DNA from: Chloroflexota bacterium
GTDB taxonomy: Bacteria > Chloroflexota > Anaerolineae > UBA7937 > B3-Chlor
Reading direction: 5' to 3'
Length of the DNA: 42,728 nt
Assembly: GCA_030613785.1 (NCBI GenBank)
Contig: JAUWLF010000027.1
Location: 1-42,728 of the forward strand
A model generated the notes under the pieces. That model saw only the letters and a list, made by a program, of their open reading frames with translations. It did no database searches and had not been told where the DNA came from. Below are positions 15,382 through 33,151 of this stretch, piece after piece. How positions within the stretch are numbered: position 1 is the first letter of the stretch; every line of letters starts with the position of its first letter. The position numbers and the translations under genes are program-made.

Positions 15382-15506
15382 GATTATTTTTGGTCTTGTC
15401 ATTCTTTTTCATCATTCTTTGGTCTTATTATTCTGACGATGTGGTGACAGGTGAGAGCTGGCTACTGGCCAGTGTTGTCGCCAAAGAGAGGGGGGTCTCA
15501 AGGTGA
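15378..15506 (+). CDS. 42-residue single-span membrane protein
   Basis: A GTG at 15378 overlaps the portal stop, and the frame ends in a TGA that overlaps the GTG of the zinc-finger gene at 15503. The product is M-R-L-F-L-V-L-S-F-F-F-I-I-L-W-S-Y-Y followed by a short polar tail, so one membrane helix. Its 5' half is very T-rich, unlike the GC-rich neighbours. The overlaps at both ends argue for a real coupled gene, too short for most annotation. The palindromic element at 15442-15484 lies inside it, which is the main argument against. Confidence 0.45.
   Translation: MRLFLVLSFFFIILWSYYSDDVVTGESWLLASVVAKERGVSR
15442..15484. repeat. Palindromic phage-module element, 43 bp (copy a)
   Basis: TGGTGACAG at the left and TTGTCGCCAA at the right are inverted arms around a CTGGCTACTGGCCAG inner palindrome. 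It lies just before the ribosome site of the zinc-finger gene. Confidence 0.7.
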
Positions 15507-17992: not shown

Positions 17993-18045
17993 TGGTGACA
18001 GGTGGTGACTGGATCGGATCCGAGCTGAACGGATTCTGTCACCAA
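17993..18045. repeat. Palindromic phage-module element, 53 bp (copy b)
   Basis: Arms TGGTGACAG and CTGTCACCAA enclose an inner CGGATCCG palindrome. Followed by GAGAGGGGAGG and the GTG of the gene at 18065. Confidence 0.75.
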
Positions 18046-18939: not shown

Positions 18940-18945
18940 TGTGAT

Positions 18946-19106: not shown

Positions 19107-19148
19107 TGGTGACAGATGGATCTCCAGGATCCGGAGAATCTGTCACCA
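19107..19148. repeat. Palindromic phage-module element (copy c)
   Basis: TGGTGACAGAT and ATCTGTCACCA form 11-bp inverted arms around CTCCAGGATCCGGAG. The ribosome site GAGGAAAG and the GTG at 19161 follow. Confidence 0.75.
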
Positions 19149-19160
19149 GCGAGGAAAGCG

Positions 19161-19829: not shown

Positions 19830-19839
19830 GGAGGGTATC

Positions 19840-20109
19840 ATGGCTGCGATTAACGCTTACTCGTATCTGGCGGCGAGCGGTCTGGTGAAGACGGGACCTG
19901 GTGTGCTGCACTCGATCACGTTGTCGGCTGCTGCTGCCACGGTGACGGCGACGGTGTACGACGAAGTGGCGGGGTCTGGCGACGTGATGCTGGTCTTGAC
20001 CTCGATCGTGAACGACAGCAAGTGTGCTGTCCTGGACGTGGCCTTTGGTGTGGGCTGCTACGTGGTGCTGGCAGGGACGGGTGCGAAAGCGACGGTGGCT
20101 TTCCGATGA
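19840..20109 (+). CDS. Small virion-type beta protein
   Basis: 89 residues: Y-S-Y-L-A-A-S-G-L-V-K-T-G-P-G-V-L-H-S-I-T-L, then alternating hydrophobic strands (T-V-T-A-T-V-Y-D) and F-G-V-G-C-Y-V-V-L-A-G-T-G near the end. Short proteins with this L-H-S-I-x-L strand pattern are common next to tail or neck genes in phages. The ATG has GGGAGGG upstream. Its stop overlaps the start of the neck protein gene (ATGA). Confidence 0.55.
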   Translation: MAAINAYSYLAASGLVKTGPGVLHSITLSAAAATVTATVYDEVAGSGDVMLVLTSIVNDSKCAVLDVAFGVGCYVVLAGTGAKATVAFR

Positions 20110-20762
20110 GCAATCTGGCGACGTTGCGGGACCTGGTGGAGTTGGACTTGGACGACTCGGCGAACGATGTGTGGGCGACGGCTGACATTGACCGCGCCAT
20201 CAAGCGTGCCCTGGTGCAGTACAGCGAGGTCAATCCTCAGCAGATCGTGGGGACGATCACCTTGGCGGCGGACGGTCGCGAGATTAGCCTCTCGACTTTG
20301 ACGGGTCTCTCGCGGGTGGTCAAGGTCTGGTACCCGTACACGTCAACCGATCCAGAAGACCCTCCTAGCTGGGTGCGGTGGGAAACGTGGGCTGGGACTC
20401 TGTACATCGCCTCTGGTGCGGAGCCAGCGAACGGTGACAAGGTGCGGGTCTATTACCACAAGCTCCAGACCATCGACGATCTGAGTGGTGCAAGCGCCAC
20501 GACGGTCTCGATAGAGGACGAAGAGGTCATAGTCTTGGGTGCCGGTGCTTACGCTGCGTTGCAGCAAGGGCGCTCGGCTGTGGCGGCTGCCGGCGTCTCG
20601 ACTGAGACTCCGGAGCACTGGATGAGATGGGGTCTGAACCGGATGGATGCGTTCTATGATGCGCTGCGCGCTGTGCGTACCAGGGAGCTACGGAAGATCG
20701 ACAAGCGGGTGCCGATGCACGTGGACGGTTGGGAGCGTGGCGACTATCGGGACGGGATATAG
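20106..20762 (+). CDS. Head-tail connector (neck/adaptor) protein
   Basis: 218 residues from the ATG overlapping the previous stop. The start, T-L-R-D-L-V-E-L-D-L-D-D-S-A-N-D-V-W-A-T-A-D-I-D-R-A-I, is typical of phage adaptor proteins: a helix beginning a D-L-D-D...W-x-x-x-x-I-x-x-A-I pattern. A beta region with V-V-K-V-W-Y-P follows, then a closing helical part (M-D-A-F-Y-D-A-L-R-A-V-R). Such adaptors bind below the portal and close the DNA channel. Coupling with the preceding gene and nearness to the terminase support the call. Confidence 0.65.
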   Translation: MSNLATLRDLVELDLDDSANDVWATADIDRAIKRALVQYSEVNPQQIVGTITLAADGREISLSTLTGLSRVVKVWYPYTSTDPEDPPSWVRWETWAGTLYIASGAEPANGDKVRVYYHKLQTIDDLSGASATTVSIEDEEVIVLGAGAYAALQQGRSAVAAAGVSTETPEHWMRWGLNRMDAFYDALRAVRTRELRKIDKRVPMHVDGWERGDYRDGI

Positions 20763-20779
20763 GAAAGAGGGTGGAAGTG

Positions 20780-20893
20780 ATGGCAGACGAGAAGGAACCG
20801 AAGTGCCCTGGTAGCAAGATTCGGTCGAAGGGCAAGGGCAAGGGGCTGGGGCATGGCCAGGGCAAAGGGCCAGTGGGTAAGCCAAAGCCGTAG
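20780..20893 (+). CDS. 37-residue Lys/Gly-rich peptide
   Basis: ATG at 20780 after GAGGGTGGAAGTG. The product is M-A-D-E-K-E-P-K-C-P-G-S-K-I-R-S-K followed by K-G repeats, ending in V-G-K-P-K-P. It is strongly basic and low in complexity. The tight spacing to the neck gene (17 nt) favours a real small gene; the bias could also come from GC-rich sequence. Confidence 0.4.
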   Translation: MADEKEPKCPGSKIRSKGKGKGLGHGQGKGPVGKPKP

Positions 20894-20986
20894 CAGCGGC
20901 GCAAGCGCTCCTGCGACAGCCGAAGGCTGGAGCGGATCGCACCGTGAGGGGGTGTCAGACCCCGAACGGCAGAGCGAGCGCCGCGA

Positions 20987-21029
20987 TGGTGACAGGGATC
21001 CAGGATCTGGAGCTGAGGTCTGTCACCAA
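20987..21029. repeat. Palindromic phage-module element, 43 bp (copy d)
   Basis: Perfect 9-bp arms TGGTGACAG / CTGTCACCA around CCAGGATCTGG. It is directly followed by GGGAAGGGGG and the terminase ATG. Confidence 0.78.
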
Positions 21030-21043
21030 GGGAAGGGGGTAAC

Positions 21044-22555
21044 ATGGCAAAGGCAGTGATGCCGATAGCGTACGTGGTGAAGAAGTTCCTCTCGGATATT
21101 CGATGGTTCTCCAAGCTGGTGATCGGTCGTCCTCTACGTGAGTATCAACTGGCCCCTGCGTACGCGATCCTGGACTCTGTGCTGAACCAACGAGGCATGT
21201 CTTTCGCGGTGGTCTTTTCGCGGCAAGCCGGCAAGAATGAGGTCTCCGCTCAGCTAGAAGCCTACCTGCTCAACCTCTACCAACGCAAAGGCGGCTACAT
21301 CGTCAAGGCGGCGCCGACCTACAAGCCCCAACTGATCAACTCCAAGCTGCGGCTCGAAGAGTGCCTGGACAACGACTGGAATCGTGGCCAGGTTCGCGGC
21401 AAAGAGGGGTACATGATCTTCCTGGGCAAAGCTGGCTGCGTCTTCCTGTCGGCGGACCCTTCAAGTAGTGTGGTCGGTGCGACGGCGTCGATCATGTTGG
21501 AGTGCGACGAAGCGCAGGACGTCGACGAAGACAAGTGGGAGGTCGACTTCACTCCGATGGCTGCCTCGACGAACGCGACACGGGTGTTCTACGGAACCGT
21601 CTGGACGTCGAAAACGATGCTGGCGAAGATATGCCGGCGTCTGCTGGTCGACGAAGAGAGCGACGGCCGGCAGCGCGTCTTTTACGTGGACTGGGAGGCC
21701 GTCGCGAACGAGGTCCCACAGTACGGCGAGTACGTGAAGCAGGAGATTCGCCGCAAGGGACGTCACCACCCCATGATCAAAACGCAGTACTACCTGGAAG
21801 AAATCGACTCTGAGGGGAGGATGTTCGACGACCGTCGGCAAGCGCTGATGCAGGGGAGCCACGAGCGCTTGACGTTGCCCATAGAGAAGGCAATCTACGC
21901 TGCGACGTTGGACGTGGCTGGCGAGGACGAAGAGATGACTGGCGACGAGCTACGGGCTACGAAGCCTCGGAAGGACTCGACGGTGGCCACGATCTTCGAG
22001 GTCGATCTGCGGACGATGAAAGACCCTCTCCTGGCTGCGCCGTCCTACAAGGTGGTGGACGTCTTCATGGACACCGGGACGAAGCACACCCACCTGTACG
22101 GCAAGCTGCGGGCTTACTTCGAGCACTGGCAAGTTCGGCGGATCGTTGCGGACGCCTCTGGCGTTGGCGCTGGCCTGGTGTCGTTCCTCTCCAGCCGGCA
22201 AGCCTTCGGTGCGCGTGTGATCCCTTTCCAGTTCTCGCCTCCAAAACGGAAGAGTGACCTCGGTTGGGACTTCCTGACGGTGGTGGAGACGGGACGGTTC
22301 AAGATGTACCGCGACGACGGCTCGGAGGACTGGCGGGACTTCTGGCTGCAAGTGGACGAATGCCGCTATGAGGTGTCAGAAGGCGAAGAGAAGCGCATGA
22401 AGTGGGGCGTTGTGGACGCGAAGATACACGACGACCGTGTAATCTCGGCTGCGCTGGTTGCAGAGCTTGACAAGCTGAAATGGAGTCTACCAGGCAAGTC
22501 CGTGATCATCGAGGCCGACGACGTCCTGGACGAGATCGACGCTGGCAAGTTCTAG
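21044..22555 (+). CDS. Phage terminase large subunit
   Basis: 503 residues. The ATPase part has a Walker-A-like S-R-Q-A-G-K-N-E (59-66) and a Walker B M-L-E-C-D-E-A-Q-D (151-159). The nuclease part has its first acidic residue in A-T-L-D-V-A-G-E-D-E (D290), a middle A-D-A-S-G-V-G segment near 370, and a late D-D-R-V-I-S-A-A-L-V segment. Large terminase cuts the DNA concatemer and pumps it into the prohead through the portal. It lies downstream of portal, capsid and neck genes, the reverse of the common terminase-portal-capsid order. The ATG is preceded by GGGAAGGGGGTAAC. No obvious small subunit lies beside it. Confidence 0.9.
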   Translation: MAKAVMPIAYVVKKFLSDIRWFSKLVIGRPLREYQLAPAYAILDSVLNQRGMSFAVVFSRQAGKNEVSAQLEAYLLNLYQRKGGYIVKAAPTYKPQLINSKLRLEECLDNDWNRGQVRGKEGYMIFLGKAGCVFLSADPSSSVVGATASIMLECDEAQDVDEDKWEVDFTPMAASTNATRVFYGTVWTSKTMLAKICRRLLVDEESDGRQRVFYVDWEAVANEVPQYGEYVKQEIRRKGRHHPMIKTQYYLEEIDSEGRMFDDRRQALMQGSHERLTLPIEKAIYAATLDVAGEDEEMTGDELRATKPRKDSTVATIFEVDLRTMKDPLLAAPSYKVVDVFMDTGTKHTHLYGKLRAYFEHWQVRRIVADASGVGAGLVSFLSSRQAFGARVIPFQFSPPKRKSDLGWDFLTVVETGRFKMYRDDGSEDWRDFWLQVDECRYEVSEGEEKRMKWGVVDAKIHDDRVISAALVAELDKLKWSLPGKSVIIEADDVLDEIDAGKF

Positions 22556-22564
22556 GAGGCGGCT

Positions 22565-23053
22565 ATGATGGACACGTGGCGTGTGGTGCTGATCGCGTTG
22601 ACGATGATCATGGAGGCTCGCGGTCAGCCAGAGCTTGGAAAAGCGATGGTGGCCCAGGTGATCATGAATCGAGGGGGCCAGGAGATGGTAGAACAGGTGG
22701 TCTTTGCACCTGGACAGTTCGCGGTGTGGGCACCCGACAGGTTGGGACCTGGTCACTCGCTGCGGCTGGCGGTGCTGGTGTGTCACTCGATCGGGGCTTT
22801 TCCGGATGATCCTTGGTGTGTGGAGCGGTTCATGGAGGGGTGCTGTCCTGACTGGCGGGGATTGACGATCGGCGACGCCGAGTATTGGGAGGGAGTGCTG
22901 GGGATCGCGGTCTTCGTTTATGCTGGCGAGTGGGATGTTCCTCCGGAGCTTGCTGACAAGACTCACTTCGATAATCCGAAGTTCTGGCCAGAGGGTTTAC
23001 CACCCTGGCTACAAGATTGCGTGGAGGTAGGCGATCATGTCTTCTGCAAGTGA
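22565..23053 (+). CDS. Cell wall hydrolase, SleB-like
   Basis: 162 residues. It begins with a short hydrophobic stretch and the family signature I-M-E-A-R-G-Q-P-E-L-G-K-A-M-V-A-Q-V-I-M-N-R, in which Glu17 is the likely catalytic acid. F-A-P-G-Q-F-A-V-W and late aromatic motifs follow (H-F-D-N-P-K-F-W-P). SleB/CwlJ-type enzymes are known lytic transglycosylases of peptidoglycan; in a phage this serves release or entry. The start has GGAGG 7 nt upstream and follows the terminase by 9 nt. The last codons overlap the next small gene. Confidence 0.78.
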   Translation: MMDTWRVVLIALTMIMEARGQPELGKAMVAQVIMNRGGQEMVEQVVFAPGQFAVWAPDRLGPGHSLRLAVLVCHSIGAFPDDPWCVERFMEGCCPDWRGLTIGDAEYWEGVLGIAVFVYAGEWDVPPELADKTHFDNPKFWPEGLPPWLQDCVEVGDHVFCK

Positions 23054-23204
23054 TGTGAGATGGAAGTACCTTGGAGATGCGGGACGGGGGCTGCTGTATG
23101 GCCTCTGCCTGGGGCTGGTGATCACTTTGGCAGTCGGTTCTCTCGGTGTAGTGGTGGGTCACTACTGCCTGGTGCCGGTGCCGCCTGGGTGGTGTCCTTG
23201 GTGA
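23037..23204 (+). CDS. 55-residue single-span membrane protein (holin candidate)
   Basis: ATG at 23037, inside the end of the hydrolase gene, with GGAGG about 9 nt upstream. The product has a polar start (M-S-S-A-S-D-V-R-W-K-Y), a long glycine-rich membrane helix (L-L-Y-G-L-C-L-G-L-V-I-T-L-A-V-G-S-L-G-V) and a Pro/Trp-rich end (P-V-P-P-G-W-C-P-W). Overlap with a muralytic enzyme is typical of a lysis cassette, so a holin or holin-like role is likely but unproven. Confidence 0.55.
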   Translation: MSSASDVRWKYLGDAGRGLLYGLCLGLVITLAVGSLGVVVGHYCLVPVPPGWCPW

Positions 23205-23300
23205 CAGGAGGACGTCGGCGCCAGCTGAGCTCTGTATCCAAAGTCGACGCGCCGCGATCCGGAGATGCGGCGACGGCTCTGCGGCGCGGCGCGGCGCGGA

Positions 23301-23350
23301 GGACGGGGGGCCGCCTGGATTATTGTTGCGTCTTATTCGGCCCCCCGTCC
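23301..23350. repeat. 13-bp perfect hairpin
   Basis: GGACGGGGGGCCG (23301-23313) and CGGCCCCCCGTCC (23338-23350) enclose a 24-nt A/T-richer loop. It is the first of three large folded elements in a 516-bp stretch without a gene. Confidence 0.65.
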
Positions 23351-23366
23351 GGAGTGCCGTTAGTGA

Positions 23367-23495
23367 GCTCGCCCGCTCTACATAAAAGATTTATGTCGAG
23401 GCGAGCGGAGGGGATGCCGGCGGGCGCAGCCCGTCGGCACCCTTCGCACTATGCGGCATAGTGCGAAGGGCCTCCGCGAGCCGTAGCGGGCGAGC
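23367..23495. ncRNA. Candidate multi-branched structured element
   Basis: Outer arms GCTCGCCCGCT (23367-23377) and AGCGGGCGAGC (23485-23495) pair perfectly. Inside lie ACATAAA-AGA-TTTATGT, a CGGAGG / CCTCCG closing stem, GCCGGCGGGC-GCA-GCCCGTCGGC with one mismatch, and a 31-nt perfect palindrome (23440-23470; arms CCCTTCGCACTATGC and its complement). That is at least five nested stems in 129 bp with no reading frame of note. An RNA or a DNA cruciform element is possible. No promoter was found, so transcription would come from the lysis genes upstream. Confidence 0.5.
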
Positions 23496-23507
23496 GAACG
23501 GAAGGCG

Positions 23508-23550
23508 TGGTGACAGGGCCTGGCCATCGATGCCGGCGGTCTGTCTGCAA
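23508..23550. repeat. Palindromic phage-module element, 43 bp (copy e1)
   Basis: TGGTGACAG left arm, degenerate CTGTCTGCAA right arm, inner GGCCATCGATGCC palindrome. Confidence 0.6.
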
Positions 23551-23560
23551 GGTGAGCGTA

Positions 23561-23655
23561 GGTCATCCGGCGGGCTTGCGTCAGCAATCCCGCGCCGAGC
23601 GGAGGGCTGCGAGCGTCAGCGAGCATCCCGTGAGCGAAGGCGGTACCGGATGACC
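23561..23655. repeat. Long inverted-repeat element
   Basis: GGTCATCCGG (23561-23570) and CCGGATGACC (23646-23655) are perfect 10-bp arms. Inside is a second stem-loop (TTGC-GTCA-GCAA). It sits between two palindromic elements as if inserted there. Confidence 0.55.
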
Positions 23656-23662
23656 GGAGCGA

Positions 23663-23705
23663 TGGCGACAACGATCGTGACCCGGGCGCCGCGATCTGTC
23701 GCCAA
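23663..23705. repeat. Palindromic phage-module element, 43 bp (copy e2)
   Basis: TGGCGACA and TGTCGCCA arms with compensating T-to-C and A-to-G changes that keep the pairing. The inner part holds CGATCG. The ribosome site and start of the lysin gene follow. Confidence 0.7.
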
Positions 23706-23720: not shown

Positions 23721-25787
23721 ATGGCTATTCTGAGGCCTGGGCTACACTTTCACAACGCGAGCGGGATTACTCCGGCCGACGTCGACATTGTGCGGCGCTG
23801 GTCGCCTCTGAGCCTCTTGGAGGCGATGGACGGCGTGGTCAATGACCAGGTGGTGCTGCTGCGGGACTGTTGGTTCATGGCGGGGTGTCCTCCGCTGGTG
23901 TTGCGGCGGTACTACGAGCCGCGACGTGGAGGACCCAACGTGTGGGGTGCCCATGCGATGGAGAGCGTGATCCTGGCCAAGAAGTGCGTGGCTGCCGGCA
24001 TTCCCGTCGAGAAGCTGATCCTGAAGCCCTTCAACGAACCGAACATGCCGTCCTGGGCAAATTGGGAGGGGTTCGGCGACAAAGAGGCCGACATAGTCCG
24101 GTACAACGAGGCGCTGCTGCTGTTCATCGGGATAGCGAAGAGGGAGTTACCAGGGATTCGGATCGGTGGGCCTCACCTGACGGGCGGCAATCGGGACGTG
24201 CGCTTTCCGAGTGACCCTGTGGGCGTGTACTACTATCACGGAGCGACGGGCCTGTTCAAGGCGAGCCGATGCAGCGATGCCCTGGAGGCGCTGGACGTCC
24301 ATTTCGTGCACACCTACGGCATGCAACCTGGCCAGTATTCCGACCGCGCTCACGGTTTGCGGTTTCTCGAGTACGAGAAGTACCTCAAGGGCAAGGACAT
24401 CTACATCGTCGAAGGTGCCTATGGCATCTCCTCCGGTCAAGCTGCTGACCAGAACACGGTGCGCGCTCAAGAGACCGCTGCTTACCTGCGGCTGCTGGGG
24501 GAGAAGTACCCTCAAGTGAAGGGGATCGCGCTGTGGATCGGCGGCGATCCTGGTGTGGGCTGGTTTGCGTTCTGTCACAGCAACGGGCCGAACCCTGAAT
24601 CTCACAGACCCGTCGTGTACGCGGTCGAGGCTGCCTGCCACGAAGGGGAACCTGAGCCTCCGCCTCCTGAGCCTCCTGCGCCTCCTGAGCCATCCGGTTA
24701 TGTTGACTTCGACGGTTTGAGTGACCGGATGGTGTTGATGGTGAGAGTGCTGCCTGCGTCGAATGAGGACGCGCCTCACTGGAAGGTGGAGCGGATCGAG
24801 GTACAGCCAGAGGCCGATCACCAGAGCATGTTCGCGGTGCTGCCGGTGGGTAGCAAGGCGATCGTGCAGTTCTCGTGGGCTGGTGGTCAAGAAACGGCAA
24901 GTGCGAAGGCAGATGCCTTGGCACCGATGGGTGCAAGGGAGTGGGCCGCCTCGATGCCGATGTTCGAGCCTTGGGGGGCGTACAGCGTCGCAGTGGTCGG
25001 CAACAGCGAGAAGGTGACGGGGCTTGGTCTCTATGCGGACGACCTCAACGTAGACTACAAGGGGCATCATCCGGTGGTGGTGAAGTTCAGGCGAGCGGAA
25101 GGAGTGGAGCCTGAGCCTCCCGCTCCACCACCACCGGTGCCGCCTCCATTACCGCCTCCGCCGCCTCCTCCTGATCCTGGCGAAGACGTCTACAAGCTGA
25201 TGAAGGCGTTCCCTCGTGCTGGAATCGCTCACGTGGTTGATTTGCGTGACGAAATAGAATCCTTCTCGGACATGGTGGCGCTAAGAAAGCGGTGGCGGCT
25301 ATTTGACGTCATCCGGCTGGCTGTGGTGCACCACAGCGGTTCGGACTTCAAGGGCCAGACACCTCTCTCCATCGCGAGGTACAGGGTGGAGGAGAAGGGG
25401 GATCCGACGATCCCGTATCACTTCTGCGTGGACTTCGATGGCCGGCTGTCGTTCACGGCGCGCCTCTGCTACAGTCTGCCTAACAGCGGCAAGTCTGTTG
25501 CCAATGAGGAATCGGTCTCGGTGTGTGTGCTCGGTGACTACCGCAAGAATGAGATGCGGCCGACGCTCGCTCAGTTGGACACCCTGCGCCGTCTGATCTG
25601 GTACGTGCTACCTGAGTTCCTGGGTGGCGATTGGGGGCGCTATCGTGGGTTCTACGTCATCCCTCATGGGCGTCTGGTGGCTACGGAGTGTCCTGGCGAG
25701 AATCTGGTGAGGTCGCTGGTGTGGTTGGGGATGTGGCCAGAGCTAGGCTTTTTTCGGGGGAAGCCGGCTGGTGACCGGTTGCTTTGA
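23721..25787 (+). CDS. Modular phage lysin: glycoside-hydrolase-like barrel, beta domain and amidase
   Basis: 688 residues from the ATG at 23721, with GGAGG 5 nt upstream; an earlier in-frame ATG at 23709 overlaps that site. Residues 1-310 look like a clan-A-type TIM barrel: K-P-F-N-E-P with Glu106 as likely acid/base and Y-I-V-E-G-A-Y-G with Glu231 as likely nucleophile. A Pro-rich linker (about 312-324) leads to a beta-sandwich-like domain (about 328-460). A second linker (about 463-486) with a nine-proline stretch leads to an N-acetylmuramoyl-L-alanine amidase of the Ami_2/PGRP type: V-V-H-H-S-G (His537/538), P-Y-H-F, H649 and C657 as zinc ligands. Two catalytic modules in one chain suggest an endolysin or virion-associated wall enzyme. 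Confidence 0.8.
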   Translation: MAILRPGLHFHNASGITPADVDIVRRWSPLSLLEAMDGVVNDQVVLLRDCWFMAGCPPLVLRRYYEPRRGGPNVWGAHAMESVILAKKCVAAGIPVEKLILKPFNEPNMPSWANWEGFGDKEADIVRYNEALLLFIGIAKRELPGIRIGGPHLTGGNRDVRFPSDPVGVYYYHGATGLFKASRCSDALEALDVHFVHTYGMQPGQYSDRAHGLRFLEYEKYLKGKDIYIVEGAYGISSGQAADQNTVRAQETAAYLRLLGEKYPQVKGIALWIGGDPGVGWFAFCHSNGPNPESHRPVVYAVEAACHEGEPEPPPPEPPAPPEPSGYVDFDGLSDRMVLMVRVLPASNEDAPHWKVERIEVQPEADHQSMFAVLPVGSKAIVQFSWAGGQETASAKADALAPMGAREWAASMPMFEPWGAYSVAVVGNSEKVTGLGLYADDLNVDYKGHHPVVVKFRRAEGVEPEPPAPPPPVPPPLPPPPPPPDPGEDVYKLMKAFPRAGIAHVVDLRDEIESFSDMVALRKRWRLFDVIRLAVVHHSGSDFKGQTPLSIARYRVEEKGDPTIPYHFCVDFDGRLSFTARLCYSLPNSGKSVANEESVSVCVLGDYRKNEMRPTLAQLDTLRRLIWYVLPEFLGGDWGRYRGFYVIPHGRLVATECPGENLVRSLVWLGMWPELGFFRGKPAGDRLL

Positions 25788-25866
25788 TAACGAGTGGGAG
25801 GCAAAGGCGTGGAGGCTGGCTGTGGAGAGAGATCACGGGCTGGCGACGTCGCTGGACTGGCAGGAA

Positions 25867-26358
25867 TGGTGACAGATGGGGATGGCCAGGGGTGATCATG
25901 CTGTCACCAAGTGAGGGCTGGGGTGGTGACAGTCGATGCTGGGCCCAGCGATCACGGTGGCACCAATGGTGACAGCGCCACGTGGCCCGGGCAACGATCG
26001 TGACACCAATGCTGGTGACAGGATTGGAGGTGGCCAGATGCCGGTGTGTCTCCAAAGTGGTGACATTTTGGTGGCATCGATGGAGCGGTTCTGTGTCCAA
26101 AGTGGCGACAGTGATGGCCACGACGTCGGTGGCTTTTGTCTCCAAGATGGTGACAGCGACGCCGCTGATCAGTTGCCGGTGTGTCTCCAAGATGGCGACA
26201 GGTTTTTTTGCTCGAGGGACGGGATTGTGCCCAAAGGGGCGAGGCTGGACTGGCGACAACAGAGCTCCCGATCGGGACCGCGGCGGCAAGGTTTTGTCTC
26301 CAAGATGGTGACAGGGGTGGTCTGGCTCCGATCTGCTGGAGACGGATTCTGTCACCAA
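25867..26358. repeat. Array of ten palindromic elements before the tail gene
   Basis: Units start at 25867, 25924, 25967, 26013, 26058, 26103, 26148, 26193, 26251 and 26306. Each has a TGG(T/C)GACA left arm and a TGTCnCCAA-type right arm. Six are exactly 43 bp, two 53, one 44 and one 42, with a common period of 45. Inner parts differ but most carry their own palindrome: GCTGGGCCCAGC, GCCACGTGGC, CATCGATG, TGATCA, CTCGAG, CCCGATCGGG. The joints between units are themselves palindromic (TGTCTCCAAGATGGTGACAG). The last unit is followed by AAGGGAGGGTGTGAG and the tail gene ATG. Solo copies lie only in the phage module. Confidence 0.8.
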
Positions 26359-26371
26359 GGGAGGGTGTGAG

Positions 26372-28513
26372 ATGAAGAGTCTAACGGCGACGTTACTGGC
26401 AGCGCAGAAGAAGACGAGGGCAAAGCCTTACGTCTCCGTGCTCCTATGGGACAACCTGGGGGCCGATCTGCGGCTGACCTGGTCTCAGTTGTACAGCGAT
26501 GCTGTGAATGACCGCCCGATGGCCATGTGCATCGCTGGTGACAATTCTATCGTGCGGGCCTATTCGCAGGGTGTGGGCAACCTCAAGTGGCAGCGGATTA
26601 CGGACCCGACGGTCGAGGCTCAATGGAACACCTGGACTGACGCCTCGACTCAGTGCTCTCACATGAATCAGATCTACCTCGTGGCGCAGACGTCTGGGGC
26701 CTACGTGTGGCTGTTCTATATCTCGCGGTCTGACCTGATCCTGTACTGCCGCGAAAGCAGCGACTACGGCGCGTCCTGGGGTGCGGCGGCGACGGTGAAG
26801 ACGGTCAGTGCCGGCAGCGAGTTGGAGAGCGTCTGCGCTGCGGTGAGCACGGGCACGGATCTGATCTGTTTCTTCTCGACGGGTGTGGCTGGTGCATACG
26901 ATGTGAGGCTATGGAGAGTCAAGCGGACGTCGGGGTCCTGGGGATCGGCGACGGTGTGGACAAACTCTCCGGTCTACAGGGTGCGGGGCATGACGTGCCA
27001 CAAGACAGACGACTACAATATGGTCTTCGGGGCCGAGCAAGCGGGCACGGAGTTCGGGTTCGAGACGGCGTCGCCTCGGGTGTGGTGCCTCTATAAGGTG
27101 GTGTATGGGAACGGCTACAATGTGGCCTCGGACACGTGGTCGGCGTCGGAGATCGTCGAGCGGGCCGATGCCGGCACGGCCTTTGCCTCTGCGTGGCCGT
27201 CTCTGACCTACGTGGACCTTCACCGGATGTTGTTCACGGGCTACCTGGTCGGCGAGGACTATTCGCGAGTGATGCGGATGCGTGGGTTCTATGGGGACGA
27301 GTTCATGAACACGGAGTGGACTGATCCGTTTCCGTTCAAGGCCGAAGGCGGTCCCTTCGGCATGGTCACGGCGTACAGGCCGAACGGTGATGGCTACGTG
27401 TACGCTTGCTGCTCGAACGCTGCCTATCGCGCCTCGGCTGCTGGCGACGCACAGGTGGACGTGAGCTCGCGGGTGGTGAAGTACAGGGCTGTCGACCGGT
27501 GGACGGGCCACAAGGGGTCCGGTGTCTCGATCGACTACGGCCAGATGATCGCGCCGGAGATCTACGCCGAGATCTGGCTGGACAACAGCGATGGAGGTCT
27601 CAACACGCTGGGGTCTGGCGCGTTCGCTTGTTTCAAGCGAGGGGCGCAGGTGGTTCTTCGTCGTGGCTACAAGACGACTGACGGGAATGAGTACTCGCCC
27701 TGGCCGGGGCTGTGGCTGGAGGATTACGAGTACGTGGTGGACTTTCGCGGCAAGTCCTACCTGGTGATGTACTGCATCGGACCTTGGGGGCAGTTCTCAG
27801 GGATGGCTGCTCAGCGGCAGTACCATTGGGAGGACGACGACGAGACGGTGGCAGCGATCGCGACGAGGGTGTTCGCGTTGGCGGGGTTCCGGTTGACTGA
27901 GCACGCTGGCGAGGCGTCGTCTGAAATCTCGACGCTGAAACCGTCGATACTGATTCACCCTGGCCAGGACTTGCGGGGTGCTGCGCTAGGCGTCTTGTCG
28001 AAGGTCTCGGACTTCGTGTTCTGGGAGCAAACGACGGCGTACCTCAAGGAATTGAGGGACGACGAGGCGAGCGATTACACCTATGCCGACTCTGGCGAGC
28101 ATGTGATCATCGCTGGGCGCTACGGCATCCGGACGCCTGCTTACAATCACATCGAGGTCTTTTCGGGGCTGAGTCCGACGGGGATCCCGATCTTCGGCGA
28201 CGAGGTCGACTATGACGAGGTCGACCTGATTGGCCATCGTCTGCAGAAGGTGTTCGACTATGCCTATGATACGAATGCGGAGTGCGATGCTCGGTCGGTG
28301 TCTCAATTGCGGAAGCACGACGCCACGAAGAAGCGAGGCGAGATCGTGACTCTGCCGAACGTGGGGCTGGTGTTGCTGGACGCGGTGACGATCACCGACA
28401 GCCGAGCGGGTATCTCCTCGGAGGTCTACAGGGTGCGAGGGATCGAGGAAACCTATGACACGACCAAGCATCCGATGATCTATCGGCAGAAGGTGACGCT
28501 GGGTTCTCGGTAG
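26372..28513 (+). CDS. Phage tail/baseplate-hub protein with sialidase-like repeats
   Basis: 713 residues, no signal peptide. The first 350 residues contain repeats with S-x-D-x-G-x-x-W patterns (D-Y-G-A-S-W-G) and aromatic strands, typical of BNR/beta-propeller folds. The second half resembles tail hub or fibre-base proteins: W-L-E-D-Y-E-Y-V-V-D, then L-K-E-L-R-D-D-E-A, then D-A-V-T-I-T-D-S-R-A-G-I-S-S-E-V-Y-R-V-R and a closing Q-K-V-T-L-G-S-R. Host binding is inferred. The gene is directly preceded by the ten-unit palindromic array. Its last 20-48 codons recur at 30140, 31080, 34667 and 37224, which marks this 3' end as a site of repeated recombination. Confidence 0.7.
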   Translation: MKSLTATLLAAQKKTRAKPYVSVLLWDNLGADLRLTWSQLYSDAVNDRPMAMCIAGDNSIVRAYSQGVGNLKWQRITDPTVEAQWNTWTDASTQCSHMNQIYLVAQTSGAYVWLFYISRSDLILYCRESSDYGASWGAAATVKTVSAGSELESVCAAVSTGTDLICFFSTGVAGAYDVRLWRVKRTSGSWGSATVWTNSPVYRVRGMTCHKTDDYNMVFGAEQAGTEFGFETASPRVWCLYKVVYGNGYNVASDTWSASEIVERADAGTAFASAWPSLTYVDLHRMLFTGYLVGEDYSRVMRMRGFYGDEFMNTEWTDPFPFKAEGGPFGMVTAYRPNGDGYVYACCSNAAYRASAAGDAQVDVSSRVVKYRAVDRWTGHKGSGVSIDYGQMIAPEIYAEIWLDNSDGGLNTLGSGAFACFKRGAQVVLRRGYKTTDGNEYSPWPGLWLEDYEYVVDFRGKSYLVMYCIGPWGQFSGMAAQRQYHWEDDDETVAAIATRVFALAGFRLTEHAGEASSEISTLKPSILIHPGQDLRGAALGVLSKVSDFVFWEQTTAYLKELRDDEASDYTYADSGEHVIIAGRYGIRTPAYNHIEVFSGLSPTGIPIFGDEVDYDEVDLIGHRLQKVFDYAYDTNAECDARSVSQLRKHDATKKRGEIVTLPNVGLVLLDAVTITDSRAGISSEVYRVRGIEETYDTTKHPMIYRQKVTLGSR

Positions 28514-28848
28514 GCGAGCGGCGCGAGCGGCCGTGGGGTTCGCTCTCTCATCCACGACACCGCGGCACCTCGGACGCTGAGCGCCGCCCTGAGCTTGCCG
28601 AAGGGTAGAGCCGCTCACCTTGAGTAGTCCTGAGTAGGTGCGAAGCACCGTACCGAAGCACGTATCGAAGGGGGTAGCAGCGGGCCGAAGCAGTACCTGT
28701 CCTGAGCACGATGGAAGGGTCGAAGGGCGCGCTGAAGCAGGCCACCGGCGCCAACCCCCGTGTCCCTCGATACGCGATCCACGTTGTTCCGGGCTGCTCA
28801 GGATGGTGGAACAACCTCTGCCCGGTACCCACGTTCCGCCGTCAGCCT
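28514..28848. other. Non-coding stretch with REP-like fragments
   Basis: No gene seen. The stretch carries several fragments of the CCTGAG...CGAAGGG type (near 28577-28606, 28625-28675, 28695-28725), rearranged relative to 1518 and 2740. The promoter of the next cassette follows. Confidence 0.5.
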
Positions 28849-28877
28849 CTGTCACTTGCGGCAAAATCTGATATAAT
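28849..28877 (+). promoter_or_regulatory. Promoter of the DUF4258/YgiT pair
   Basis: CTGTCA (28849-28854), 17-bp spacer, TATAAT (28872-28877). The segment GGCAAAATCTGATATAAT resembles those at about 29658 and 39085 before other cargo genes. Confidence 0.65.
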
Positions 28878-28910
28878 CAGTGTAGCCGTTGGTCCCTCAA
28901 GGGAGCGTGA

Positions 28911-29228
28911 ATGGACATAGCGCATATCATCGAAGCGATCCGAGCAGGTCGAGTTCGGATCACAGACCACGCAGACGAGGAAGCACACTATGATCAGCTC
29001 ACCTTCGATGAGATATCCTCCTCAGTTCTTGATGGCGAGATCATTGAGCATTATCCGGAGGACCAACCATATCCAAGTTGTCTGATTTATGGGAGCACGT
29101 TCCGCCGCGATCCAGTGCACACCGTGTGGGCGTACAGCGAGCAGACCCACTGGGCGGCGCTGATAACCGTCTATCGTCCTGACCCCGATCGATGGATCGA
29201 CTGGCGGGAAAGGAAAGACAAGAAATGA
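28911..29228 (+). CDS. DUF4258-type protein, likely toxin of a TA-like pair
   Basis: 105 residues. The family pattern is clear: I-x-x-A-I-R-A-G-R-V-R-I-T-D-H-A-D-E-E, then L-T-F-D-E-I-x-x-S-V-L-D-G-E-I-I-E-H-Y-P, P-S-C-L-I-Y-G, H-T-V-W-A-Y and L-I-T-V-Y-R-P-D-P. DUF4258 proteins have a small RelE/BrnT-like fold and are widely found beside zinc-finger antitoxin-like partners. The stop overlaps the start of a YgiT-type gene (ATGA), as expected for such a pair. RNase activity is inferred from the family, not shown. This is the one complete toxin-antitoxin-like pair in the island. Confidence 0.75.
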   Translation: MDIAHIIEAIRAGRVRITDHADEEAHYDQLTFDEISSSVLDGEIIEHYPEDQPYPSCLIYGSTFRRDPVHTVWAYSEQTHWAALITVYRPDPDRWIDWRERKDKK

Positions 29229-29467
29229 GGCCCTTTCAAGAGTGCCCCGTATGCGGTGGTCAACTCGTAGAGAAGGAGGTCGAGAAACTCCTGCGCGGAG
29301 GCGTGCACACTGCCGTCTTGAAGGTCCGCGCCGAAGTCTGCCTTCGTTGCGGCGAGCGCCTGTACTCAGAGCAAACCGTCAGGCGATTTGAAGAAATCAG
29401 AGCCAAGCTCGAGCGGCAGGAAACGGCGGAGTTCGAAGTCATGGGCCAATCGTTTCAAGTGACGTGA
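29225..29467 (+). CDS. YgiT-type zinc-finger protein (antitoxin-like)
   Basis: 80 residues from the ATG overlapping the previous stop. Two Cys pairs, C-P-V-C-G-G near the start and C-L-R-C-G-E in the middle, form the zinc site of the YgiT/MqsA N-terminal family. The rest is helical (V-R-R-F-E-E-I-R-A-K-L-E-R). There is no C-terminal HTH as in full MqsA. It likely pairs with and regulates the DUF4258 protein. Confidence 0.75.
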   Translation: MRPFQECPVCGGQLVEKEVEKLLRGGVHTAVLKVRAEVCLRCGERLYSEQTVRRFEEIRAKLERQETAEFEVMGQSFQVT

Positions 29468-29518
29468 CGGCAGAAGCCAGCCAGGCAGAAGCCCCGTCGA
29501 ATCATGCCTCCACGCGCG

Positions 29519-29595
29519 CCAGGAAATCAATTTCCTGGCTCAACCCAAGAAGTCCCTACGGGACTTTTTGACTGTAGCGCGCAAATCCATTCCCG
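29519..29595. repeat. Triple-hairpin repeat, partial copy
   Basis: CCAGGAAATCAATTTCCTGG and AGTCCCTACGGGACTTTTT hairpins followed by a degraded third stem. Full copies occur at 32755-32923 and in tandem at 34044-34653. Confidence 0.7.
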
Positions 29596-29714
29596 ACCGC
29601 CGCCGCTCGCCTGACGCCTGGCAACAGCTCCTCCCAACTACGCCATGCCACTTATGGCAAACTCTGCTATCTGTAATGAAGGTGAGTAAGACCACGGCTG
29701 CACAGCGGTGCGAG

Positions 29715-29921
29715 ATGAGACAAGTGATAATCTACCCCGGCGAGGACGGCTATTGGGTGGCTGAATGTCCAAGCTTGCCTGGGTGCGTTAGGCAGGGAAG
29801 GACAAAAGGAGAAGCGGTCGCTAACATCAGGGAAGCGATCCAGGTGTACGTTGCGGCCCTGAAAGAGGACGATCTTCCGGTCCCAGAGGAGCGCTTTAAA
29901 ACGCTGGTTGTGGCCGTATGA
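29715..29921 (+). CDS. HicB-like antitoxin
   Basis: 68 residues from ATG 29715; an in-frame ATG at 29676 would add 13. The HicB core is typical: Y-P-G-E-D-G-Y-W-V-A-E-C-P-S-L-P-G-C-V-R-Q-G-R-T-K-x-E-A-V-A-N-I-R-E-A-I. HicB proteins sequester the HicA mRNA interferase. Four bases overlap with a following ATG that begins M-T-K-L-P-S, the usual HicA start, but that frame stops after 7 codons. So the antitoxin survives without its toxin. A second, slightly shorter HicB lies at 36578. Confidence 0.75.
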   Translation: MRQVIIYPGEDGYWVAECPSLPGCVRQGRTKGEAVANIREAIQVYVAALKEDDLPVPEERFKTLVVAV

Positions 29922-29941
29922 CCAAGTTGCCGAGTTCTTGA
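29918..29941 (+). pseudogene. HicA toxin remnant (first codons only)
   Basis: ATG at 29918 overlaps the HicB stop and reads M-T-K-L-P-S-S-stop. M-T-K-L-P is a very common HicA N-terminus. No other HicA sequence follows in any frame, so about 55 residues are gone. Confidence 0.55.
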
Positions 29942-30139
29942 AGTTGTTGTGATCTAGGCCGCACGCTCGAGGCTAACCCTACAACTCCCCCTTTCTTCCC
30001 CTCACACCTCGAGAGCCTATCGCCCCCCGTCCCCCTTCAACGCCCACCCTGCACAAGGAACTCGCACCACACACCGCCTCTGCGAAAGTGAGGTCCCACC
30101 ACATGTCTCATCCTACCTTCCCAGTGTAGTTCCCCTAAA

Positions 30140-30257
30140 CGATGATCCCGTGTGGATCTCGGCTGAGATCTACCATGTGCGAGCGATCGAAGAGACGTAC
30201 GATACGCACAAGAGGCCGCCTATCTACGCGCGGAAGCTGACGTTGGGCGCGCGATGA
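30140..30257 (+). pseudogene. Orphan 3' end of the tail gene (fragment 1)
   Basis: The frame reads D-D-P-V-W-I-S-A-E-I-Y-H-V-R-A-I-E-E-T-Y-D and ends in R-K-L-T-L-G-A-R-stop, matching the last 36-40 codons of the tail gene at 26372-28513. No start codon or upstream coding part is present. Confidence 0.75.
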
Positions 30258-30294
30258 GGCCTGATGTGTCGTGTTATTCTGAGGACAACAGCGC

Positions 30295-30323
30295 TTGCCA
30301 CAGGTATCAGACCATGATACAAT
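30295..30323 (+). promoter_or_regulatory. Promoter of the membrane protein gene at 30375
   Basis: TTGCCA (30295-30300), 17-bp spacer, TACAAT (30318-30323). Confidence 0.7.
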
Positions 30324-30374
30324 TCGTTTGCGTGACGTTGTGCTACATTATCAATGCTATCGGGAGGGTAGACC

Positions 30375-31034
30375 ATGCCACAGGTGACCTGGATTGATCT
30401 ACCGGCCCTGCTGACTGATGTCGTCGCGAACTTCGTTGCCAACGTGTGCGCAGGTATCCTGTTTGTCATCTTCGCAGCAGCCGTGCTGTGGTTGGCCGAC
30501 AGGGAACTAGGCATCCTCGGGCGAGCGCGCGAGCGCAAAGAGCGACGGCTGCGAGACATGCGCAGGGCCGTACGACAGCTGGAGTTGCTCAGCGAGGAAG
30601 TCTCCTCGCTGCTAGAGAAGATACCGAAATGGCGTGACGACTTGACCAACACGCGCTGGGGACAGGTGTTCATCATCTCCACTCCGGCCTGGGACTCGGC
30701 TCAGTTGAGCGGTGAGTTGGCGAGACTCGTCGAGCCCGAGCTATTGGAGGGCCTGGTGCAGTTCTATGACGGGCTGGCCTGCACCGAGCGTTGGTTGCCT
30801 CTGCTGGCGCAAAGCTGGCTGGTGTCCGAGAACGAGATCGACAGCCCGGAAGGCAAACGCACTGCGCTCATTGCTATGGCGGTCGGAGGGCTGGCCCAGG
30901 CGGGGGAGGTCGGTCACACCTTGATGTGGCGCGTGGAGTCGGAGATTACAAGGCTGAATAGCAAGCTCCCTAGGGTAGCAAAGGATGCTCACGCCAGGAA
31001 CAGCGAGACGGCGGCCGCCAAGCCCGAGGGATAA
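30375..31034 (+). CDS. Single-span membrane protein, cargo family A, member 1
   Basis: 219 residues: a membrane helix near 22-41 (V-A-N-V-C-A-G-I-L-F-V-I-F-A-A-A-V-L-W-L), a basic coiled-coil part (R-A-R-E-R-K-E-R-R-L-R-D-M-R-R-A), and a soluble domain with W-G...P-x-W-D...S-G-E-L-x-x-L-V-x-P-E-L-L...Q-F-Y (residues 95-131). The same motif order is in the gene at 38361, so both belong to one family. I do not recognise it. Its place among toxin-antitoxin and restriction genes suggests a defence or exclusion role, by association only. Its last 46 codons recur at 37054 and its last 12 at 32706. The ATG follows GGGAGGGTAGACC. Confidence 0.6.
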   Translation: MPQVTWIDLPALLTDVVANFVANVCAGILFVIFAAAVLWLADRELGILGRARERKERRLRDMRRAVRQLELLSEEVSSLLEKIPKWRDDLTNTRWGQVFIISTPAWDSAQLSGELARLVEPELLEGLVQFYDGLACTERWLPLLAQSWLVSENEIDSPEGKRTALIAMAVGGLAQAGEVGHTLMWRVESEITRLNSKLPRVAKDAHARNSETAAAKPEG

Positions 31035-31079
31035 CCGCTTCCTGCCCAAGGCTGGCCTGTAGCTGTTTCACGTGGTGCC

Positions 31080-31151
31080 GTGAAAGATGATCGGGCAGGT
31101 ATCTCGTCGGTCCTCTATTACAGGGGCAAGGTGACTTTGCGGGCGAGGTGA
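31080..31151 (+). pseudogene. Orphan 3' end of the tail gene (fragment 2)
   Basis: V-K-D-D-R-A-G-I-S-S-V-L-Y followed by Y-R-G-K-V-T-L-R-A-R-stop matches the tail end with an internal deletion of about 19 codons (R-V-R-G...I-Y lost). Confidence 0.65.
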
Positions 31152-31261
31152 ACAACGGGGATTGTTGACATCATCAACATCTAACATGATTAGGTGGGGC
31201 GAAGCTCTGTTCCACGACACTTGTGGTCAAGAATGAGCGAGAGGTGAAGGGAGGATGTCCG

Positions 31262-31537
31262 ATGTCGAAGGGCGATGAACTTTGGGAAAAGAGGGGGAAG
31301 CTGCTCAAGTACCTGTATGGGAAAGGGGCGATTGATCCCGATTGTGCCGCTGACATGGGCAAGGTGGGCGAAGCCATCGGTGTGGACTCGGAAACCCTCG
31401 ACCGGCTGGTCGGGAGTCTGCTGCACGAGCAGCTAGTCGATGGCATGGACGATGACACGGCCGATTCAGGCCGCAGGGTCTTCTTAACGGGCGCCGGTTT
31501 CAGCGAGGCGAGGGGGATAGTAGTCTCCGAAGAATAG
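31262..31537 (+). CDS. Small winged-helix-like protein
   Basis: 91 residues from the ATG at 31262 with GGAGG 7 nt upstream. M-S-K-G-D-E-L-W-E-K-R-G-K-L-L-K-Y-L-Y is followed by a helix-turn-helix-like part (G-K-V-G-E-A-I-G-V-D-S-E-T-L-D-R-L-V-G-S-L) and a beta-like wing (R-R-V-F-L-T-G-A-G). It may bind DNA. The last 7 codons lie in sequence that, on the other strand, is the cut end of the AbiEii gene, so the C-terminus may be a product of recombination. The 50 bp around its start resemble those of the gene at 34892. Confidence 0.5.
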   Translation: MSKGDELWEKRGKLLKYLYGKGAIDPDCAADMGKVGEAIGVDSETLDRLVGSLLHEQLVDGMDDDTADSGRRVFLTGAGFSEARGIVVSEE

Positions 31538-31702
31538 CTTCTTGAGCGCTGTGCCTCTCTTGAATACCAGAGCGTCAGTCAGGTCCGGGCGCGAGGATAC
31601 GCCCGCCAAGACATAGCTGAGAGCGTAATCCTTCTCGACCACATCCGGCGGTACGCCGTGCTGCCGTGCCGCTTCTTGAATGCGGGAGCGCAGCGTTCTC
31701 AC
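31484..31702 (-). pseudogene. Truncated AbiEii-type nucleotidyltransferase toxin
   Basis: 72 codons remain of a protein usually near 300 residues. The N-terminus is typical (V-V-E-K-D-Y-A-L-S-Y-V-L, V-F-K-R-G-T-A-L-K-K-L-F-F-G-D-Y-Y). AbiEii proteins continue here with S-E-D-L-D-F, which holds the catalytic Asp pair, but this copy runs into unrelated sequence at about 31517 and stops. It cannot be active. The ATG overlaps the AbiEi stop as in intact operons. Confidence 0.75.
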
Positions 31703-32550
31703 GACTCCCTCGCTATCGGAAGGTTGTCCTGAATCATCCAGCGGCGGTCACACGGGCCACGGCGGGGACGAGAGGGATCGAGCGCGTGGTACCGGCTCGC
31801 GCGCATCTTCAGGAGCGGCTGGAGGATGGATTCCCGAGTGCCGGCCTGCTCGAGCGCCCACCCGAGACGCTTGGCCACGGAGATTGTGCCGTACTGGCGC
31901 GCATATCGCACGAGCTTGCTTGCATCAAGGTTGTCGACATGGTTGTGTGCTATGCTGAACGCCTCGCCTATTCCACCGAAGATCCGTGGTGAGATGAAGG
32001 TCTCCAGGACTGTCCGCTCCCGGTCTGCGATGCGGACCCTTGAGTGCTCATCGACCCAGACCTCCTCGGTTCCGAAGAAGTGCTCCCTCTTGACGGAAAC
32101 ATACTCATAGCGGACCCCAGCGATCTCCCACGCGTGGCGACGCCTGCCCTTGCCATGGGAGCCCCGCATGCTGGGAGTCACCACCTTCTTAGGGGTGAAC
32201 GCTGTGACAACCCGGGGTACCTGGTCCGTAAGGCCGTGGTAACTAAGAGCAGACCAGTGACTGATCGCCGACGGCGTCACCAGACGAGTGGCGATCACAA
32301 AGGGATGAACCCCAACCTGCCCGGGCGCTATTTCGGATGCGGCGTACAGTCCGCGCCTGAGCCTTGTGAGCAACCCGTTGTGCACCATTCGGGCCAGGAG
32401 GAAGCGAACATATCCTTGAGGAACCCCCGCACGCGGGGCAACATCCCTAGCTTCGGCGGTTGAGAAGACGAGCTTTCCTTCCTCGGCCAGGGCTCTGAGC
32501 AGTCTGAGGGCGTGCGTACCGGTACGTCTGGTCGGCGAATCAGTAGCCAT
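31699..32550 (-). CDS. abiEi: AbiEi-type antitoxin / transcription regulator
   Basis: 283 residues from the ATG at 32548-32550, with AGGAG 7 nt upstream; a longer frame to 32598 would cross the promoter. The N-terminal 75 residues form a winged-helix domain (L-R-L-L-R-A-L-A-E-E-G-K-L-V-F-S-T, then R-F-L-L-A-R-M-V-H-N-G-L-L-T-R-L-R-R-G-L-Y). The rest matches the AbiEi C-terminal domain (S-H-W-S-A-L-S-Y-H-G-L-T; A-D-R-E-R-T-V-L-E-T). AbiEi is known to counter the AbiEii toxin as a type IV antitoxin and to repress its own promoter through inverted repeats. Such repeats lie at 32576-32608. The partner toxin is cut short here. Confidence 0.8.
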   Translation of the reverse strand: MATDSPTRRTGTHALRLLRALAEEGKLVFSTAEARDVAPRAGVPQGYVRFLLARMVHNGLLTRLRRGLYAASEIAPGQVGVHPFVIATRLVTPSAISHWSALSYHGLTDQVPRVVTAFTPKKVVTPSMRGSHGKGRRRHAWEIAGVRYEYVSVKREHFFGTEEVWVDEHSRVRIADRERTVLETFISPRIFGGIGEAFSIAHNHVDNLDASKLVRYARQYGTISVAKRLGWALEQAGTRESILQPLLKMRASRYHALDPSRPRRGPCDRRWMIQDNLPIARES

Positions 32551-32569
32551 GAGATCACTCCTATTGCCA

Positions 32570-32598
32570 ATTATACTACGTAAGTGACAAGAAGTCAA
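32570..32598 (-). promoter_or_regulatory. Promoter of the AbiE operon
   Basis: On the minus strand TTGACT (32593-32598), 17-bp spacer, TATAAT (32570-32575), 20 nt before the start codon. Confidence 0.75.
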
Positions 32599-32608
32599 AC
32601 TTACGTAG
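32576..32608. promoter_or_regulatory. Inverted-repeat operator, likely bound by AbiEi
   Basis: CTACGTAAGT (32576-32585) and ACTTACGTAG (32599-32608) are perfect 10-bp inverted repeats. One arm touches the -10 box and the other overlaps the upstream edge of the -35 box, an arrangement suited to repression. Confidence 0.7.
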
Positions 32609-32705
32609 TTCGTCTGGCAATCACTCTACCGTTGGTGAGGGTTCCTGCCGTAGATACGGGGGCGTGAGGACTATGGGACTTCGCAGTACCATGAGACTGT
32701 GCACG

Positions 32706-32752: not shown

Positions 32753-32754
32753 CT

Positions 32755-33103: not shown

Positions 33104-33151
33104 ATGGACAACAGTACGGGACTGACTTCAGAAACAAAGGAGGAACAGGCA

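Follow-up and report, generated by a model that had tools for sequence, protein, structure and literature searches.

Operators dispersed over a replicon are familiar from the KorA and KorB systems of IncP plasmids, in which they constitute a plasmid-wide regulon. These operators and the iterons of the P4 alpha protein are single short palindromes or direct iterons, and they show neither the 42/52-bp spacing nor the variable palindromic core of the units analyzed here, which consist of two inverted 9-bp arms (TGG[T/C]GACAG on the left and CTGTC[A/G]CCA on the right) with 24 or 34 bp between them and palindromic centres. The GGTGAACAG-like iteron of P4 resembles an arm of these units.

Other likenesses are found in mycobacteriophages and in further plasmids. 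The ESAS of cluster K mycobacteriophages are inverted repeats that closely precede the start codons of numerous phage genes and are conserved within gene families (PMC3203893, PMC11373665, PMC12699233), and in 2011 their authors, as we do below, found little support for an mRNA hairpin (PMC3203893). ESAS differ, however, in having 17-bp repeats around a spacer of 4-13 bp, in being tied to a 13-bp SAS and, since 2024, to SigA-like promoters (PMC3203893, PMC11373665, PMC12699233), and in lying in the non-structural half of the genome, whereas the units of our window accompany structural genes. Allowing up to two mismatches, the window contains no match to the 13-bp SAS found by the start codon (GGGATAGGAGCCC), the flanks of the units carry no fixed 13-mer, and a scan confined to sigma-70-type promoters and to the array region (25780-26400) returned no site of the kind that ESAS contain in their repeat. 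Together with the deviating arm and spacer lengths, this led us to reject membership of the ESAS/SAS system. The stoperators of cluster A mycobacteriophages, whose repressor stops elongating RNA polymerase, are similar in that numerous binding sites are scattered along the genome in short gaps between genes, but they are described as asymmetric, orientation-dependent 13-bp sites bound by a monomer with two DNA-binding domains (PMC9283540); the units differ from them in having symmetric inverted arms in place of an asymmetric one-orientation site. KfrA of IncU/IncP plasmids is a plasmid-borne long-helix DNA-binding protein, a likeness to the protein family presented below, of which a KfrA_N fusion exists. 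In RA3, its operators are described as five 9-nt repeats (TGTATTGTA) confined to the surroundings of the kfrA promoter, unlike the units in both sequence and layout (PMC7783346). Finally, long intergenic direct repeats have been mentioned for PromA-like plasmids, the group that carries the units, in a passage without sequence, so that sameness with the units is not established (PMC4290620). The consulted sections of the literature on ESAS (PMC3203893, PMC11373665, PMC12699233), stoperators (PMC9283540), KfrA (PMC7783346) and PromA plasmids (PMC6232296, PMC7039861, PMC4290620) do not describe the element. Neither was a description found, in the literature searched, of a site with two levels, in which constant arms enclose a core that is variable, symmetric about the dyad and conserved by locus, although an earlier notice on pSB102 is possible.

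The window is the whole 42,728-bp contig (C2) of a 4.29-Mb MAG (95% complete), and terminase comparison places it closest to named genomes of Chloroflexota, several of which belong to Anaerolineales or Anaerolineae. The ten-unit array that an initial annotation had placed in front of gene 26372 was recovered at 25867-26357 (Table 1) and comprises six units of 42 bp, one of 43 bp, one of 41 bp and two of 52 bp. Two size classes 10 bp apart thus exist as proposed, but the exact figures of 43 and 53 bp do not hold, as the arm-to-arm lengths are one less. Successive units start 57, 43, 46, 45, 45, 45, 45, 58 and 55 bp apart, and the joints between them, described as palindromic, are so imperfectly. 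We regard the array as a cluster of ten DNA-level two-arm sites, probably an operator cluster from which a small helix-sheet-helix protein would switch the downstream gene, a reading in which we have moderate confidence. For the product of that gene, earlier called a tail gene, neither PHROG nor Pfam gives a match at E ≤ 0.001. Its last ~53 residues recur as partial copies at 30099-30254, 30985-31077, 32710-32769, 34533-34754 and 37149-37364, and the copies are separated by moron-like genes, among them DUF4258 and HicB-like ones (28352-37367). This arrangement looks like serial module insertion at the 3′ end of gene 26372; the close relative G003 has one partial copy of this protein end, at 18112-18267.

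Table 1. Units and adjoining genes in the window, with positions counted from its first nucleotide.
Feature	Positions	Strand	Remark
Single 42-bp unit, 20 bp before zinc-finger gene 15503	15442..15483	+	arms with 0 and 1 mismatch
Single 52-bp unit 5′ of ORF 18065, inner part GGATCGGATCCGAGC	17993..18044	+	exact arms
Single 42-bp unit upstream of gene 19152	19107..19148	+	exact arms
Single 42-bp unit, 16 bp before terminase gene 21044	20987..21028	+	exact arms
Terminase large subunit gene, 3′ of single unit	21044..22555	+	phrog_2, E 4.4e-5 (weak); relatives found
Degenerate 42-bp unit	23199..23240	+	left arm exact, right arm 2 mismatches
Degenerate 42-bp unit, inner part CATCGATG	23508..23549	+	left arm exact, right arm 2 mismatches
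Single 42-bp unit directly 5′ of amidase gene 23709	23663..23704	+	arms with 1 and 0 mismatches
Array unit 1, 43 bp	25867..25909	+	exact arms
Array unit 2, 42 bp, centre GCTGGGCCCAGC	25924..25965	+	centre conserved in G003
Array unit 3, 42 bp	25967..26008	+	
Array unit 4, 42 bp, centre GTGGCCAG	26013..26054	+	
Array unit 5, 42 bp, centre CATCGATG	26058..26099	+	
Array unit 6, 42 bp	26103..26144	+	
Array unit 7, 42 bp, inner part CTGATCAG	26148..26189	+	
Array unit 8, 41 bp, degenerate, inner part CTCGAG	26193..26233	+	
Array unit 9, 52 bp, inner part CCCGATCGGG	26251..26302	+	
Array unit 10, 52 bp, ending 15 bp 5′ of start codon 26372	26306..26357	+	exact arms
Gene 3′ of array, 713 aa, without family match	26372..28513	+	

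Beyond the array, seven more units, two of them degenerate and all absent from the initial annotation, lie 5′ of other structural genes (15442-23704). The structural block runs from the portal gene (14008) over the C2H2 zinc-finger gene (15503), the head/protease gene (15874), 18065, 19152, 20022, the terminase gene (21044), 22565 and the amidase gene (23709) to the 713-aa gene (26372). In the window and its relatives, many units stop 4-26 bp before the homology match of the next gene, with a purine-rich stretch in between, and others lie farther off. Elsewhere in the window, four large adjoining genes (4283, 6491, 8662 and 10327, spanning 4283-12210) may be paralogues; all four match the syntenic phage G010, and three weakly match PHROG tail spike/fibre or neck families. 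Near the contig end, a large Type ISP restriction-modification-like gene (39156-42275; Type_ISP_C, 1.1e-92) has a homologue in the related contig G016 C22. G010 itself (L108) has almost no units and carries GGATGCATCCTGAGC-TGTCGAAGG repeats in its intergenic regions (e.g., 4951-5140 and 10190-10380).

The array is not a product of chance, since exact TGGYGACAG/CTGTCRCCA arms with 20-40 bp between them occur at five sites in the MAG, all of them in the window contig, and the reversed-arm control at the same settings yields none. Across 26 record stretches, allowing up to two mismatches, 105 of the 116 arm pairs of 36-59 bp measure 41-43 bp (n = 84) or 51-53 bp (n = 21), compared to a reversed-arm count of 6. 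Out of 130 terminase-related loci, 12 have at least two units and seven have one, with unit-bearing loci reaching down to ~50% terminase identity; 67 of 110 lengths are 42 bp and 16 are 52 bp (reversed control: 9). More divergent relatives (G019, G022, G050, G055 and G073) carry no units. A portal-protein scan of IMG/VR, run without information on the element, returned eight contigs: seven had already come from the element scans, and the eighth, G013, has units as well. Among 400 genomes sampled from the phylum, only the MAG itself and two genomes with one site each contain the strict 41/42-bp pattern. Hits were expected by the initial annotation to cluster in related phage modules, and they do so in Chloroflexota phages; they are neither spread evenly nor free in their spacing. 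The scope suggested there, phages and Chloroflexota, was too narrow, as units also occur in an inovirus and in Proteobacteria plasmids. The inovirus, IMG/VR record 2731957639 (L114), is recognizable as such from its integrase, its replication protein and a protein I of the M13 type; it has seven units, six of which are 41 bp, and does not match the window proteins tested.

Different repeats occur in other phage contigs. The TGGTGACA/TGTCACCA loci in L010-L012, L020, L021, L024, L052, L057-L059 and others have 40/49-bp spacing, tandem arms and AT-rich centres, and are possibly replication iterons. CCTGTACCAGGGTACAGGGCCTTAGT is a 26-bp tandem palindromic repeat in two phage contigs (L246, 11483-11620; L251, 7924-7995).

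The 10-bp difference between the size classes, together with the palindromic centre, also recalls the attB/attP geometry, and the units might be recombination sites, either serine-integrase-like att pairs of 42 and 52 bp or shuffling sites. We find this hardly credible: there are many sites per element with different centres, gene order is stable across phages, and an integrase-like match joins only some of the carriers (L114, L293, L288, L246 and L116).

The inner parts of the units have no positional consensus but are rich in palindromes of 6-12 bp built from a few words (GATC, AGCT, CCAGG, TGGCCA). The short palindromes pointed out in the initial annotation are indeed enriched over shuffles: 59 units of 42 bp contain 96 palindromes of 6 bp versus 28.1 expected (largest of 1000 shuffles: 48), and 96 non-redundant units contain 138 versus 45.4 (largest of 300 shuffles: 63), with 51 versus 11.9 at 8 bp and 21 versus 3.2 at 10 bp. 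They peak exactly at the dyad, where a 6-bp palindrome is centred in 21 of the 59 units, and positions 20 and 23 are complementary in 43 out of 65 cases (19.2 expected). The word excess over shuffling amounts to 62 versus 7.0 for GATC, 32 versus 7.0 for AGCT and 31 versus 8.5 for CCAGG; window frequencies predict 15.0 GATC, 6.2 AGCT and 7.2 GTAC, the last of which is absent from the inner parts. In nine units orthologous between the window and G003, the bases coincide at 64 of 73 positions up to 4 bp from the centre, at 52 of 72 between 4 and 8 bp from it, at 54 of 90 farther out and at 91 of 135 in the left flank. Because agreement is highest at the centre, the centre of each unit appears, from this sequence comparison, to be under selection site by site. 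A selfish REP- or MITE-like repeat that accumulates between genes without regulating them would explain the tandem arrays, the turnover between relatives and the spread over unrelated mobile elements, and a precedent could be seen in the other repeat that occupies the intergenic regions of G010. We give this possibility little credence, as the units have divergent inner sequences where a repeat would have copies, orthologous sites and their centres are conserved, and the strict pattern hardly occurs in the sampled Chloroflexota genomes.

The inverted arms adjoin a purine-rich stretch and a start codon, an arrangement that would also suit transcribed RNA hairpins before ribosome-binding sites (attenuators, processing stems or protein-binding stems). 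At the three variable arm positions of the 96 units, however, there is no covariation (69 versus 68.5, 82 versus 82.1 and 56 versus 56.6 expected), nor is there any in the plasmids described below (74 versus 74.7 of 108), and the inner sequences of 78 units show no folding advantage over their shuffled versions (mean z −0.23). A 10-nt step is moreover unexpected for an RNA stem. An RNA hairpin leader, for which compensatory stem changes would be expected and were not found, was therefore dropped as very improbable; since the arms do not covary and the fold is unremarkable, the unit is a DNA element and not a hairpin. The 10-bp step corresponds to about one turn of DNA and would fit proteins bound on one face. 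The earlier suggestion of a protein reading one face of the DNA gains support here, as the step recurs in other phages and the arm positions that would pair in an RNA vary independently.

As to the identity of such a protein, the initial annotation nominated the zinc-finger protein encoded at 15503. This candidate is not supported: its homologues occur in G019 and G022, both of which lack units, and a comparison of the inovirus with the tailed phages points elsewhere. In this all-against-all comparison of open frames (E ≤ 1e-4), a single family of ~130 aa is common to L114 and the unit-bearing tailed phages G001, G004, G006, G011 and G014, with 25-49% identity; the remaining L114 matches are an integrase shared with L293 and a short frame overlapping the family gene. 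A family profile run over 342 loci detects only these six at E ≤ 1e-3, and a broader profile adds L225 (E 8.5e-7) and L232 (E 8.6e-4). Units accompany the family in seven virus records and in all 13 plasmids examined, the exception being L232, which combines a weak family member with one 53-bp unit with three arm mismatches. The family gene is itself preceded by a unit ending 16 bp (L114), 22 bp (L115) or 25 bp (L225) upstream. From this co-occurrence, the family is the likely candidate reader of the units.

Searches with five or six members against Pfam, NCBIfam and PHROG gave no match above the curated cut-off or clearly significant. The predicted structure (pLDDT 89.4) consists of a long helix, a three-stranded sheet and a second long helix, in which the conserved KYLYLIHP...R.REYIG strands form part of the sheet. 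Arm-DNA-bind_5 is matched by one of five members, at an E value of 1.7, and no Arm-DNA-binding/AP2-like or other known DNA-binding fold is among the structure matches listed for it. Scoring of 7,996 candidates yielded 77 homologues. One of them, P0010, has the family protein fused behind a KfrA_N domain. Several unit carriers do not have the family in the sequence at hand: no member was found in the window contig and its MAG (best E 0.18), in the unit-rich G003, G013, G016 C22 and further fragments, or in fragments of other viruses with similar units, such as L309 (HK97-type capsid) and L293 (Dit and Gp37-like proteins). In the window genome, G003, G013 and G016 C22, the gene for the binder may lie on DNA that is missing from the sequence, the binder may have diverged too far, or a different factor may take its place.

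Plasmids were retrieved with one family homologue, again without information on the element. Out of 47 records, stretches of 13 plasmids were examined: pSB102, pTer331, pSN0729-62, three from Pseudomonas and one each from Comamonas, Diaphorobacter, Agrobacterium, Aminobacter, Citrobacter, Variovorax and Acidovorax. All 13 contain units, between one (Aminobacter) and 18 of 42 bp each, and those from Acidovorax and Diaphorobacter additionally have units of 41 bp. In the first 11 plasmids, 108 of the 120 arm pairs of 30-65 bp are exactly 42 bp long. The units are mostly intergenic in pSB102 (11 out of 11, with 15% noncoding DNA) and pSN0729-62 (10 out of 11, with 14% noncoding DNA), and the nearest unit lies 0.8-2 kb from the family gene in nine of the 11 plasmids measured, compared to 5.1 kb in piece L106 of the tailed phage G006. 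Among 40 non-redundant plasmid cores, the words CCAGG (25 versus 4.0), ACCAGGT (11 versus 0.1), TGGCCA (9 versus 0.3) and GATC (15 versus 2.5) are in excess, while the palindrome excess is weaker than in the phages (6 bp: 45 versus 21.7; 10 bp: 6 versus 1.7, with one shuffle at 9).

The arms might instead be bound by a different trans factor, such as a KfrA-type protein, a repressor of plasmid or phage origin or a protein of the host, with the ~130-aa family as its partner or passenger. The fusion in P0010 fits this explanation, as do the unit-bearing phages without the family and the position of the family gene, which adjoins a gene annotated as 'DNA-binding protein' on CP080762 and pTer331 and an annotated KfrA gene on pSN0729-62. 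Yet none of six KfrA-positive plasmids without the family (checked to E 1) has units at 41-43 or 51-53 bp. By hand calculation, chance alone would give this 13/13 versus 0/6 split once in 27,132 cases, a figure to be read with the relatedness of the plasmids in mind, as they are not independent draws. The pSB102 stretch, moreover, has units and no gene annotated as kfrA. On these two grounds we discarded the KfrA operator system. It is reported that kfrA is not conserved among PromA plasmids (PMC6232296) and that the sequence bound by KfrA in RA3 is a different one (PMC7783346). Another trans factor is unlikely in our view, though to be taken seriously. The association in plasmids could also be with another backbone gene instead of the family, because PromA plasmids have many other genes in common.

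Dispersed two-arm operators of a mobile-element regulon are the best reading of the units from the sequence data. It rests on the fixed arms, their spacing of about three or four helical turns, the locus-by-locus conservation of the centre in close relatives, the lack of any sign of RNA pairing, the siting just before genes, the recurrence in unrelated phages and plasmids, and the association with one protein family. It is weakened by the unit carriers without the family, the distance between family gene and nearest unit in most plasmids measured, the other genes common to PromA plasmids, the smaller palindrome excess in plasmids, the negative sigma-70-type promoter scan of the array and the lack of a known DNA-binding fold among the structure matches listed. 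We predict that the small helix-sheet-helix protein holds the two inverted arms from the same side of the double helix, and its long helices would span the 33 or 43 bp between the arms. The palindromic centre may be read by a second subunit or a partner, which would give each site its own identity. By analogy with stoperators and the plasmid Kor operators, occupancy would then repress or gate transcription into the following gene or operon. The long helices, the KfrA link via the fusion and the accumulation of up to 18 units of 42 bp in one plasmid stretch would also suit centres of partition, handcuffing or segregation (parS-like clusters), at which a coiled-coil protein would act as a scaffold that pairs sites or molecules; the palindromic centres could in that case mark like-with-like pairing. 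The units, however, stand directly before genes, including those of phage structural modules, where partition sites need not be, and we hold such a role to be rather improbable.

If the operator reading is correct, a further step is conceivable, which we put forward tentatively. Tailed phages of Chloroflexota, an inovirus and conjugative plasmids of Proteobacteria might share one addressable operator code, in which the helix-sheet-helix protein would bind the TGGYGACAG arms and a palindromic word (GATC, AGCT, CCAGG, TGGCCA, CCGG or TCGA) would serve as gene address, steering one protein to different genes or joining like sites. Dispersed operators on mobile elements are known already, and what appears new, against the literature searched, is the two-level design of the site. 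Through one unannotated protein family, the element connects phages of a phylum that has scarcely been studied with conjugative plasmids of broad host range, and the role of the sites can be put to a direct test on named plasmids, for example pTer331 and pSB102.
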